DNA of 64,000 nt from Synechococcus sp. PCC 7502 (lineage in GTDB: Bacteria; Cyanobacteriota; Cyanobacteriia; Pseudanabaenales; Pseudanabaenaceae), in the NCBI RefSeq assembly GCF_000317085.1, contig NC_019702.1, forward strand, positions 1,270,394-1,334,393, in the 5' to 3' direction. The notes beneath the pieces are model-generated. The model was not told the origin of the DNA. It saw only the letters and a program-made list of their open reading frames with translations, and ran no database searches. Each line of letters opens with the position of its first letter. The stretch's first letter is position 1. Below are positions 24,065 through 40,057 of the stretch, in pieces. Both the position numbers and the translations under genes were made by a program.

Positions 24065-24085
24065 TATAGAGCCTGTTTCATATCT
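24065..24085 (+). repeat. Left terminal inverted repeat of the IS5-like element
   Basis: TATAGAGCCTGTTTCATATC and its perfect reverse complement at the other end define the element. The element proper probably starts at GAGCC (24069), since TATA lies outside on both sides and may include the target duplication. Confidence 0.9.
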
Positions 24086-24972
24086 CATGAGTAGCAATTC
24101 TTTTTAGCATCAAACGAATAAAGCAAAGATTGAGTTTAGCTGTAGCATTAACGAGAGTTCTCTCAAAGTTCTTAACTAAGATTTTGCATCTTTCAACCCA
24201 AGCATTTGACCTTTCAATTACCCACCTTGTCGGCACAACTACAAACCCAGACAGACCTTTTTCTGCCTTCTGTTGCTTTGATACCTTAGGAGAAATTTCA
24301 AACCTAATCTTAGTCATAATCTCAGGATATATCTTCTCTAGTTCTTGGATCAGTTTCTCGATATGATAACCACTATCCAGCAATATCGTAGTTAGCGTAA
24401 TGTCATCTGGTTCGATTTGAAGTAATCAATGTTAATCGTTAACATCTCAATCAGTCCTTGGTCATCTGATACATTTGCTCTTGTTAAATAGGTGAAAAAG
24501 GAAATCCCAGTATGTCAACGGCTAAATGTCTTTTGATCCCGTTAGTTGCTTTGTAGGAGCAGAAGCCCTTGGATTCTATACTTGCATTACAAGTATTTTT
24601 CACTGCTTGTGAGTCAATGATGATTAAAGTTGTCCATTTTGATTTTTTTTGACTGTTCACGGGCTGTTGAATGCAAGGTTTCCATAATCGCAGTAAATGT
24701 ACCTGTATCTTTCCACTCCTTGTAGTATCGATAGACTGTAGAGAATGGTGGTAAGTCTCGGGGCATATCTCGCCAATTACAACCGTTTTTGAGTTGGTAG
24801 AGTATGCCGTCTAAAATTTGTCTTTTTGTCCAAGTTGGCGGTCTAGTTTGCTTTTTCTTTGGGAGCAATGGTTCTATAATTTCCCATTCTTTATCTGTTA
24901 GGCTACTTGAGTATGGATTTAGCATTTTCTAAGCATCATACATCTTGCTCATAATAGATATGAAACAGGCTC
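24069..24972 (-). mobile_element. IS5-family insertion sequence, ~904 bp, degenerate
   Basis: Perfect inverted repeats of at least 17 bp (GAGCCTGTTTCATATCT) bound the element. TATA flanks both ends, consistent with the TA-type target duplication of the IS5/IS427 group. One transposase gene fills it on the minus strand but is broken. Intact ends mean it could still be mobilised in trans. It sits between accC and ftsH and does not disrupt a gene I can recognise. Confidence 0.88.
24078..24925 (-). pseudogene. IS5-type transposase in three reading frames
   Basis: The first frame (24925 to 24614) gives the N-terminal IS5 domain (LTDKEWEIIEPLLP, WRDMPRDLPPFSTVYRYY). It ends just after an A8 run on the coding strand (24643-24650); in the zero frame this is A-AAA-AAA, a classic -1 slippery heptamer, and the -1 frame continues with the first catalytic Asp in LIIIDSQAVKNT and KATNGIKRHLAVD. 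Such two-frame transposases by programmed frameshift are normal for this group. A second frameshift near 24409-24421 then breaks the frame before the second Asp (TTILLDSGYH), and the third frame (24383 to 24078) carries the C-terminal domain (PTRWVIERSNAWVERCK). The second shift has no slippery site and most likely kills the gene. Confidence 0.82.
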
Positions 24973-32785: not shown

Positions 32786-32902
32786 CTCCACAACTCTCGC
32801 CGAACCTCGTAATCAATAACCTATTCCTTAAACTTTTTTTCTATGATTGCTTGGTTTAATATATCTATATTGAGTTTTTCGCACGCTCATAGGAACCCTA
32901 AT

Positions 32903-33184
32903 ATGCAAATACAAATACAAGATAGAGCCAAAGTGTCCTTGCGATCGCTCCGCAAGCCAGAACAAACAAAAATTACTCGCACGCTGAATGAATTAGCTGC
33001 TACTCTCCACACAAATGCAAAGTTACGAAGACTTGCCTCGAAATTCCCCTTTAAGAAAATGTATACCTATGAAGTCGACCAAAACCTAAGTTTAATTATT
33101 TCAGCAGAAGGAGATACCTATACTCTTGAAGACATTATAGATAGAGACCGATTGAACTATCTCATTCCTACGTTTCAAGAATGA
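32903..33184 (+). CDS. RelE/ParE-superfamily-like small protein
   Basis: The ATG at 32903 is preceded by AGGAAC 6 nt upstream, so I use it instead of an ATG 60 nt earlier. The product has ~93 residues. Pattern: a helical N-terminal half (KVSLRSLRKPEQTKITRTL, NELAATL), LRRLASKFPFKKMYTYEV, and then strands NLSLIISAEGDTYTLEDIIDRDRL. This helix-helix-beta layout and the ending in I-x-D-R are like RelE/ParE mRNA interferase or gyrase-toxin folds, but classical catalytic residues cannot be assigned. The stop codon overlaps the start of the Shedu-like gene (ATGA), so translation is coupled. It could be a toxin, an inhibitor or a helper of that nuclease. Confidence 0.6.
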   Translation: MQIQIQDRAKVSLRSLRKPEQTKITRTLNELAATLHTNAKLRRLASKFPFKKMYTYEVDQNLSLIISAEGDTYTLEDIIDRDRLNYLIPTFQE

Positions 33185-33804
33185 AAAATCTGCAAAAGCA
33201 CGTTATCGATCCCCAAAAATGTCGTACTGAATGGGATGACTTTTCAAATCTCCTTACCTCTAAGCCAATACTCTCAGAGCAAAAAGATGTGCTTCCCTTT
33301 TTCAAGCAGCGCCAAAATCTCTCCTTACTTATTTGCAACTACTTTCCAAAGATTAAAGTCCCTGACCAATACGCTCATGAATACGAAATTTATGGTGACT
33401 TTATTGCGGATTTAGTGATCGGAGATTCATCCGTTCATCATTACTTACTCGTTGAATTTGAGAATGGGGCAGCAGATAGTGTATTTAGACAGAAAGGGAA
33501 AAAGGCAACTCCAGACTGGGCACCACGATTTGAAGGTGCATATTCCCAGTTGGTAGATTGGCTTTGGAAGCTTGAAGACATGAGAAGTACACAGGACTTC
33601 CTTAACACCTTTGGCTCCCGCCGTGCAACCTTTCAAGGGCTTATAGTTATTGGCAAAGATATGAACCTAGCAGTACAAGAACAGGATCGTCTAAAATGGC
33701 GATTAGATAAAACAATGATTGACTCAAATGCAATATCAAGCGTCTCTTTCAATCAATTGAGTAACGATCTTAATCACTGGCTAAAATTCTATTATGGGGT
33801 CTAG
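33181..33804 (+). CDS. Shedu-type immune nuclease-like protein (DUF4263, SduA-like)
   Basis: A 207-residue protein. The core has the PD-(D/E)XK-like pattern of the DUF4263 family: IYGDFIADLVIGD (~70-82), then strand YLLVEFENGAADSVF (~88-102) and K-rich linker KGKKATPDWAPRFEGAYSQLVDWLWKL, a very characteristic stretch in SduA relatives (APEWSPRFE...SQLVDW). After this come GLIVIGKD and a C-terminal helical region. Shedu proteins are single-gene anti-phage systems made of a nuclease domain. Here the protein is short and has only a short N-terminal extension, and it overlaps the RelE-like gene. No hypermutated or GC-shifted composition is evident. The nuclease role is by family; no DNA target is known. 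Confidence 0.78.
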   Translation: MKNLQKHVIDPQKCRTEWDDFSNLLTSKPILSEQKDVLPFFKQRQNLSLLICNYFPKIKVPDQYAHEYEIYGDFIADLVIGDSSVHHYLLVEFENGAADSVFRQKGKKATPDWAPRFEGAYSQLVDWLWKLEDMRSTQDFLNTFGSRRATFQGLIVIGKDMNLAVQEQDRLKWRLDKTMIDSNAISSVSFNQLSNDLNHWLKFYYGV

Positions 33805-37987: not shown

Positions 37988-38040
37988 AATATTAAGCTCG
38001 CAGATTATAGATTTAACCTAAGTAGTTTTAATCCTAAGTT

Positions 38041-39402
38041 ATGTTTACCAATCTCCACATCCAAAATTTCAAGTCTTGGGCAGATACAGGAGAGATGCGG
38101 ATGGCTCCTATAACTGGATTTTTTGGTACAAATAGCTCTGGGAAAACAGCAATCTTGCAGTTTATTCTCATGCTTAAGCAAACTATAGAATCCAGAGATC
38201 GCAATACAATTTTGAATTTAGGGAACGATCCTTATAGCTATGTAAAATTAGGTACGACTTACGATATTGTTCACAATCATAAATTTCCTGCTCAAATTGA
38301 ATTTTCTCTAACTTGGAAACCACAAAGGATACATAAGAAAGAACTTATGCTTCTGTTTGTAAGAGAGTCTCAGGAAGAACGTTCCCTATATCAGATTCCT
38401 CATAGTCCATTCTTAAAGTTTACATCTAGATTTAATATCAATACTGATGAAGTAAGCTTGCAACTTTTTAAGTATTCATTTCAGTATAGTAATCATAAAT
38501 GGAGTTATTTTGGAAGAAGATTTCTTAAGATTAATAATGAAATTCGAGGTGAAACATTTATTTCTGGTGAGCTAGAAAATGATTTATTGAGCTTTAATGA
38601 GGTCTATGAAACCTTAGAAAATCCATTTAAGCCATATAATGCAACTTCTCAATTTGACTTATATAATGACCTTCATGCAACTTTTGAAGACCTTTTTGTT
38701 AATACTTACTATCTCGCACCTCTAAGAGCATATCCTGAGCGAACATATTTGTGGTCTGGGGAACGTCCTCACGATGTGGGTAAGTTAGGCGAGTTGACAG
38801 TTGCGGCAATTTTAGCTTCTCGAAAAACTGATCCAAGTGTAGAAATCTCTGTAGCTAAAGCACTCAAGGATTTGGGATTAATACATACCTTTAAGTTAAA
38901 AGCGATCGCCGAGAACCGAAGAGATTACGAGATATTAGTACAGCGATCGCCGAATTCCCCTGAAGTTTTAATTACTGATGTGGGGTTTGGAGTCTCGCAA
39001 ATCTTGCCTGTTCTGGTTTTGTGCTATTACGTTCCCAAGGGTTCTACCGTGATTTTGGAGCAGCCAGAAATTCATCTTCATCCCTCAGTTCAAGCAAAAC
39101 TCGCAGATGTATTTATTGATGCGATTAAAACTCGTAATATTCAAATCATTATCGAAAGTCATAGTGAGCATCTATTAAGGCGATTACAGCGCAGAGTTGC
39201 CGAAGCAAAAGATGGATTCACCAATGAAGATGCTGCCCTCTATTTTTGTGATATGACCGATGATGGTACTTCTCAATTAGTTCCCCTAGAGCTAGATACC
39301 TACGGCAATATTAATAACTATCTCCAAGACTTTTTTGGTGACGAAATGGGCGATCTTGTTGCTATGACCGAAGCTGCCATGCACCGACAAATGAGTTCCT
39401 AA
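38041..39402 (+). CDS. SMC/OLD-like AAA family ATPase (DUF3696-type), cassette partner of a PIN nuclease
   Basis: A 453-residue ABC/SMC-type ATPase in the group that often carries DUF3696 at its end. It begins with the typical strand-helix LHIQNFKSWADTGEMRMAPITGFFG and Walker A GTNSSGKT (29-36). The middle ~200 residues are a variable coiled/insert region. Then come a signature-like motif DVGFGVSQILPVL, Walker B VILEQPEIHLHPSVQ (~337-350), the D-loop/switch IIIESHSEHLLRRLQRR (~368-384), and a C-terminal domain with LELDTYGNINNYLQDFFGD. Such ATPases act as sensors or motors with a nuclease partner (as in Septu, Gabija and PARIS). Here the partner is the PIN-like gene 18 nt downstream. Composition is A+T-rich and HIP1 sites (two at 38900-38950) are present, so it has been resident for some time. 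Confidence 0.82.
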   Translation: MFTNLHIQNFKSWADTGEMRMAPITGFFGTNSSGKTAILQFILMLKQTIESRDRNTILNLGNDPYSYVKLGTTYDIVHNHKFPAQIEFSLTWKPQRIHKKELMLLFVRESQEERSLYQIPHSPFLKFTSRFNINTDEVSLQLFKYSFQYSNHKWSYFGRRFLKINNEIRGETFISGELENDLLSFNEVYETLENPFKPYNATSQFDLYNDLHATFEDLFVNTYYLAPLRAYPERTYLWSGERPHDVGKLGELTVAAILASRKTDPSVEISVAKALKDLGLIHTFKLKAIAENRRDYEILVQRSPNSPEVLITDVGFGVSQILPVLVLCYYVPKGSTVILEQPEIHLHPSVQAKLADVFIDAIKTRNIQIIIESHSEHLLRRLQRRVAEAKDGFTNEDAALYFCDMTDDGTSQLVPLELDTYGNINNYLQDFFGDEMGDLVAMTEAAMHRQMSS

Positions 39403-39420
39403 GACTTGAAAAACTTAAAG

Positions 39421-39897
39421 ATGTGCCGAGTTATAGATACAAATGTTTTGATCGTGGCAAATAATCGAGAATCTGAACATGCTTCTCCTAAATGTATTAT
39501 CTCTTGCATTAGATGGTTGCAAAACTTTGAAAAATCAGGAATTTTGGTGATTGATAGTAAATGGCTAATTATCAATGAGTATAAAAAGAAAGTTAATCAA
39601 TCAGGGCAACCTGGTGTTGGGGATGCCTTCTTAAAGTGGATTTTAATTAATCGCAATAATCCTCAGCGTTGCCAACAAGTTCAAATCACCCAAATTGACG
39701 AAAATAATTTTGCTGAATTTCCTCGATCGTCTAATCTAGAAAAATTTGATCCAAATGATCGCAAATTTGTCGCTGTTTCTTTAACCCATCCTGCAAAACC
39801 TGCGATCGCAATAGCAATAGATCGTGGTTGGAATAGACATCAAAAACCTTTATATGAACATGGAATTGAGGTTGAATTTCTCTGTCTCCAGAATTAG
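39421..39897 (+). CDS. PIN-like nuclease, partner of the AAA ATPase
   Basis: A 158-residue protein with a PIN-type acidic set, counted from the ATG at 39421: D6 (RVIDTNVLIVANN), E53 (LIINEYKKK), the motif FDPNDRKFVAVS (D110/D113), and D134 (AIAIDRGW). This is the D-E-D-D pattern of PIN ribonucleases, though the middle part (residues ~15-50 and ~60-105) is unlike VapC. A TTG at 39406, 3 nt after the ATPase stop, would add five residues; the ATG fits the family start better. The gene is the last of the cassette and the next gene (murC) is 160 nt away. It could degrade RNA or nick DNA when the ATPase signals; not tested. Confidence 0.72.
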   Translation: MCRVIDTNVLIVANNRESEHASPKCIISCIRWLQNFEKSGILVIDSKWLIINEYKKKVNQSGQPGVGDAFLKWILINRNNPQRCQQVQITQIDENNFAEFPRSSNLEKFDPNDRKFVAVSLTHPAKPAIAIAIDRGWNRHQKPLYEHGIEVEFLCLQN

Positions 39898-40057
39898 TAC
39901 CCCAGATTTACAGCCTGTTACCAACAAAATTGCCACGTTTATCTATTCAGACCTATTGATTTTAATTTTTAATTTAGGTTTTGATCCGTAAAAATACCAC
40001 TATGACAAAATTCTTGCTATGATAGCGCACGATATTAGGCGTGTCTGAGGAGATTAA

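Follow-up and report, generated by a model that had tools for sequence, protein, structure and literature searches.

What does a large ATPase gene, followed at once by a gene for a small nuclease-like protein, do in a cyanobacterial genome, and does such a pair constitute a defence system without a name? The locus that raises this question lies in a stretch of 64,000 nucleotides from Synechococcus sp. PCC 7502, referred to here as the window, in which an initial annotation had described an SMC-type ATPase gene and, less than 20 nt behind it, a gene for a PIN-like protein. Both open reading frames were found at the place described, both on the forward strand, and 18 nt lie between the end of the ATPase gene and the ATG at 39421. 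The features are as follows.

37992-39958, no strand assigned: accessory segment enclosing the HEC-03 pair, without same-genus identity inside, flanks identical at 83% and 81%
38041-39402, forward strand: HEC-03B, DUF3696-type ABC (SMC/Rad50/PtuA-like) ATPase of 453 amino acids, catalytic motifs intact
39421-39897, forward strand: HEC-03A, predicted PIN-domain nuclease of 158 amino acids from the ATG at 39421, or of 163 if the TTG at 39406 is used

When the TTG is taken as the start, the small open reading frame spans 39406-39897; the ATG at 39421 is the likelier start, since the relatives begin just before the VDTNV motif.

The motifs that had been read in the ATPase are all present at the positions given for them: Walker A is FGTNSSGK with K35, the signature GFGVSQ occupies residues 315-320, the Walker B region includes E340 and E343, and ESHSEH stands at 372-377, all of them invariant or nearly so among 44 aligned relatives. 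With an H-loop and a DUF3696 tail, the features of an ABC/SMC-type ATPase are complete, and Pfam returned AAA_15 (5e-24), AAA_21 (1e-18) and DUF3696 (2e-7); the structural matches of the model (pLDDT 86) are SMC heads, Rad50 and PtuA. The PADLOC-DB 2.0 profiles matched are HEC-03B for the ATPase (E 1.6e-123) and HEC-03A for the small protein (E 1.1e-33). HEC-03 is defined by adjacent matches to these two profiles, and here they are nearly full-length and 18 nt apart. On sequence grounds, the window pair is a copy of HEC-03, a catalogued candidate anti-virus system. The earlier view that no named system has this composition does not hold, as PADLOC already lists the ATPase and PIN pair under that name. 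The abbreviation HEC means "Hma embedded candidate" (PMC10855318), Hma being the helicase-methylase-ATPase candidate of PADLOC (PMC8565338). In the literature searched, HEC-03 is named in one relevant paper, as present in rumen genomes (PMC13356809). A literature search found no functional study of HEC-03, and DUF3696 was not met in the relevant literature searched.

The small protein is recognized by its fold more readily than by its sequence. Its PIN family match in Pfam is weak (PIN_3, E 0.11), and sequence searches of solved structures with it returned no PIN match. Its AlphaFold model, built from a 49-sequence alignment, reaches a pLDDT of 93.6, and the best VIA-align matches of the model are VapC21, VapC11 and VapC15 (Z 10.4, 9.9 and 9.7; rmsd 3.4-3.6 over 125-131 residues), VapC21 superposing with an rmsd of 3.4 over 126 residues. 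In Foldseek, PIN proteins also rank at the top, with weak E-values, none of which falls below 1e-3. Four acidic residues are conserved among the alignment rows, namely D11 (47/49), E58 (45/49), D118 (49/49) and D139 (49/49) in the numbering from the TTG, which become D6, E53, D113 and D134 when counted from the ATG at 39421; this is the PIN-type pattern previously pointed out, with D6 and D134 correctly numbered. The relatives also share the family motif GQPGxGDAF with hardly any variation. As modelled, the protein is a genuine PIN domain, and a structure prediction lacking the PIN fold, one of the outcomes that were to count against the proposal, did not occur. The combination of a DUF3696-type ATPase with a PIN effector, rather than with HNH, Toprim or helicase, also stands, the PIN fold being modelled and matches to the other three being absent.

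The window copy differs from HEC-03 in nothing, and a branch of its relatives adds an RNA ligase that matches no PADLOC model. With PARIS the pair shares the two-gene build of an ABC ATPase and a nuclease and, as proposed below, would share an ATPase that holds a tRNase in check; the AriA profile of PADLOC matches the window ATPase more weakly (E 5e-26), and membership was rejected, the partner being PIN by fold and not the Toprim protein AriB. Among solved structures, PtuA is one of those closest to the window ATPase, a likeness to Septu and Retron-Eco7; in comparison with their PtuAB, however, the window effector is PIN instead of HNH, and there is no reverse transcriptase. Septu itself was set aside, with no HNH match and a partner that is PIN by fold and not PtuB, and so was Gabija, as neither protein matches Toprim or helicase in Pfam. 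Among the PADLOC profiles, NsnB of Menshen (NsnABC) ranks second for the ATPase (E 2.5e-56), but HEC-03B fits it far better, and no DUF262 gene lies beside the pair, whose neighbours in the window are an IMPase-like gene and a MurC-like gene, which removes Menshen. VapC has the same PIN fold and acid pattern as HEC-03A, whereas the partner of HEC-03A is a large ATPase encoded upstream; the pair was not assigned to VapBC, for the neighbours of the PIN gene are the gene of the 453-aa ATPase and the MurC-like gene, and no small VapB-like gene is present.

Whether the two genes travel together was followed in two samples. A single-protein scan of genome contigs gave no relatives, but an alignment-based scan of one genome for each of 84,980 species, limited to two peptide patterns and therefore yielding a lower bound, found at least 55 HEC-03 loci in about a dozen phyla. 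The ATPase gene lies directly upstream of the PIN gene at 53 of the 55 species loci; one of the other two ends at a contig edge and the other (L061) is decayed. With a PIN profile, the same arrangement was found at all 15 PIN loci in 398 Pseudomonadota genomes, and co-inheritance, whose failure would have spoken against the proposal, is thus upheld in both samples. The order, ATPase then PIN, is the same in all relatives checked, the gap between the genes is -11 to +29 nt at 44 of 45 measurable loci, and 23 of these 45 have a 4-nt ATGA overlap (gap of exactly -4). Distances among the ATPases correlate with those among the PIN proteins (Mantel r 0.68, 0 of 2000 permutations), a result that shared host history could also yield. 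The nearest relatives of the window pair belong to the Pseudanabaenaceae; in this family, that of the window, the PIN gene occurs in 12 of 38 genomes, is absent from the sole other genome of the genus, and the pair is intact at seven of seven loci checked. Among 386 sampled cyanobacterial genomes five carry HEC-03, one as a degraded remnant. At L061 (9998-11157), the decayed PIN gene, which lacks the ATPase, is directly followed by a distant RNA ligase-like open reading frame with a KLDGG motif, different from the ligase described below.

The ATPase tree groups sequences across phyla. Most copies found are chromosomal or on unassigned contigs, and plasmid-borne relatives occur in Aeromonas, Azotobacter, Acinetobacter, Tistrella and Rhodococcus, conjugative plasmids being among the carriers. 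Viral contigs and phage records gave no relatives, so that a phage-borne origin is without support. A defence-like inheritance of the pair survives these comparisons. On the Acinetobacter soli plasmids (L119, 10627-13284), an HNH endonuclease gene follows the pair in the place that the ligase takes elsewhere; the surroundings include helicase and N-6 DNA methylase genes on the upstream side and DUF262 genes on the downstream side.

In the window, same-genus DNA matches the flanks up to 37991 (83%) and again from 39959 (81%), not between, and because identity stops and resumes at these points the segment that holds the pair is accessory. No empty site is seen in the genome of the same genus, which is 85% complete: its counterparts of the two flanks are on separate contigs and have other accessory genes next to them. 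On one (L113, 9610-11192), HEC-01A and HEC-01B (ATPase and DUF4276) take the position next to murC that HEC-03 holds in the window; on the other (L114, 882-3253), a group of three unnamed genes, including one for a P-loop ATPase, comes after the IMPase-like gene, and this group has no PADLOC match and at most a weak ATPase_2 match in Pfam. The island-like composition ascribed to the pair is borne out by its GC content (37.3% and 34.8%; open reading frames of the window have 42.2%, sd 2.6) but not by the cyanobacterial HIP1 octamer, of which the pair holds 3 in 1.86 kb versus 1.55 per kb in the window. The density of HIP1 is native despite the low GC, which argues against a recent arrival from a non-cyanobacterium.

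Enrichment in defence islands was among the checks proposed at the outset. Around the relatives, 114 PADLOC models were matched within 2.5 kb versus 60 beyond 6 kb (E 1e-20, 126 proteins each), a comparison in which many models overlap and the control, the far flanks of the same loci, is not strict. Defence genes are enriched there, but to a degree too modest, and against a control too weak, for the argument to lean on it. Many copies, that of the window included, sit between ordinary genes. At 4.2 kb from the pair, the window carries a Shedu-type SduA gene (33181-33804, forward strand, 207 amino acids; PADLOC SduA E 5.2e-98, Pfam SduA_C 1.1e-33), and this short form occurs in 8 of the 38 family genomes. 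A small open reading frame on the forward strand (32843-33184) ends where the SduA gene starts; it looks RelE/ParE-like by eye and matches nothing in Pfam or PADLOC. In L133, the SduA homologue likewise comes after a protein that is 33% identical to this one. The small open reading frame may encode a partner of the short Shedu form. On the reverse strand (24078-24925), two short low-GC open reading frames match pieces of an IS4/5-type transposase (DUF4096 and DDE_Tnp_1, below cut-off), likely an insertion-sequence remnant.

A hint as to what the nuclease cuts comes from a third gene. On annotated plasmids, an "RNA ligase family protein" is encoded 3-5 nt after the pair; it belongs to PF09414 (Pfam, E 2e-33 and similar) and has a conserved motif-I EEKxDG and further ligase-like blocks. 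The ligase abuts the pair at eight genome loci (L021, L037, L038, L039, L042, L050, L053 and L054), PF09414 is the commonest Pfam family among the neighbours of the pair, and no PADLOC model matches the ligase. It is present on 9 of 12 HEC-03 plasmids, one copy being interrupted, and all nine plasmid ligases above 40% identity belong to HEC-03 plasmids. In the 398 Pseudomonadota genomes, 11 of the 15 PIN loci carry the ligase; conversely, all ten strong matches to a ligase profile (E 1e-80 or better, with the query's own genome left out) have ATPase and PIN genes directly upstream, whereas five weaker matches have neither. In each of the six ligase-bearing genomes that were checked there is a single copy, one weak additional match being the exception. 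Since the presence of the ligase requires 2 changes on the ATPase tree versus 10.1 when shuffled, the ligase loci are near one clade, and the window's copy sits in another. The genome of the window has no PF09414 protein, and for its copy the RNA argument is therefore one purely from homology. What is new here is that one branch of HEC-03 has a third gene, for an RNA ligase, outside the PADLOC models; an earlier mention of the trio is possible. On Bosea and Pseudomonas plasmids (L123, 4082-6015; L124, 3956-5974), more distant RNA ligase genes have another kind of AAA ATPase gene behind them, possibly an unrelated ligase-ATPase pair.

Because an RNA ligase is linked to the HEC-03 family, we suggest that the PIN nuclease cuts RNA; the likeness to DNA-cutting systems implied in the initial annotation was probably a wrong emphasis. 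We infer a role in defence, a step of restraint and release, RNA as the substrate and a part for the ligase, and consider it somewhat probable that the pair is a two-gene HEC-03 locus acting as an infection-triggered ribonuclease, with the PIN protein restrained by the ATPase. The ATPase would serve as sensor and restraint, keeping the PIN protein inactive as AriA does with AriB; upon infection it would change state and release the nuclease, which would cut cellular RNA, most likely tRNA, and translation and phage growth would stop. In the ligase-bearing branch, the ATP-dependent RNA ligase could rejoin what has been cut, and in this way limit leakage or reset the cell, while the two-gene copy of the window would act without this step. 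The ends that PIN nucleases produce, 5'-phosphate and 3'-hydroxyl, can be sealed directly by ATP-dependent RNA ligases of the PF09414 type. VapC proteins cut tRNA anticodon loops, the tRNase AriB of PARIS is sequestered by the AriA ATPase until a phage trigger binds, and PtuB of Retron-Eco7 degrades tRNA (PMC12409363). With these precedents and the seal-ready ends, an ATPase-restrained ribonuclease with an optional safety or recovery ligase is the best reading. That a large bacterial branch possesses, in HEC-03, an RNA-cutting immune system under ATPase control and with its own ligase, in which a reversible cut-and-reseal protects or rescues the host, is advanced more tentatively, as a possibility short of probable.

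The same observations could be read in other ways. The ATPase might recognize DNA that is invading the cell or being replicated, and the PIN subunit might cut it, as in Gabija: the ATPase is folded like the heads of SMC and Rad50, proteins that act on DNA, cutting of DNA is common among ATPase-nuclease defence pairs, and some PIN proteins do it. We regard this as unlikely, however, since the nearest PIN structures are VapC ribonucleases and the commonest neighbour family, specific to HEC-03, is an RNA ligase. That VapC-like fold, the translational overlap of the two genes and their carriage on plasmids would equally suit a PIN toxin with an ATPase antitoxin, selected for its own persistence and not for phage defence. 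Such a module for plasmid maintenance would have a small, labile DNA-binding antitoxin; here, instead, the nuclease is encoded by the second gene, its partner is an ATPase of 453 amino acids in which selection acts on every catalytic residue, and the copies found are mostly chromosomal or on unassigned contigs, which leaves this reading with little probability.

A nuclease with a ligase could also process or mend RNA as an accessory operon without any role in conflict, and the ordinary genes that flank many copies, the window's among them, would agree with that. Rarity (5 of 386 cyanobacterial genomes), decayed copies, plasmid carriage and groupings across phyla on the tree make it very improbable. 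The infection-triggered ribonuclease thus remains the reading that we prefer. With the ligase variant, the bare candidate HEC-03 is turned into a testable mechanism, as the tight linkage of the ligase in both directions gives a concrete prediction of what the HEC-03 nuclease cuts. If this is true, HEC-03 would include a defence system that brings its own repair enzyme, and there would be a case for a third gene in the definition of the family.
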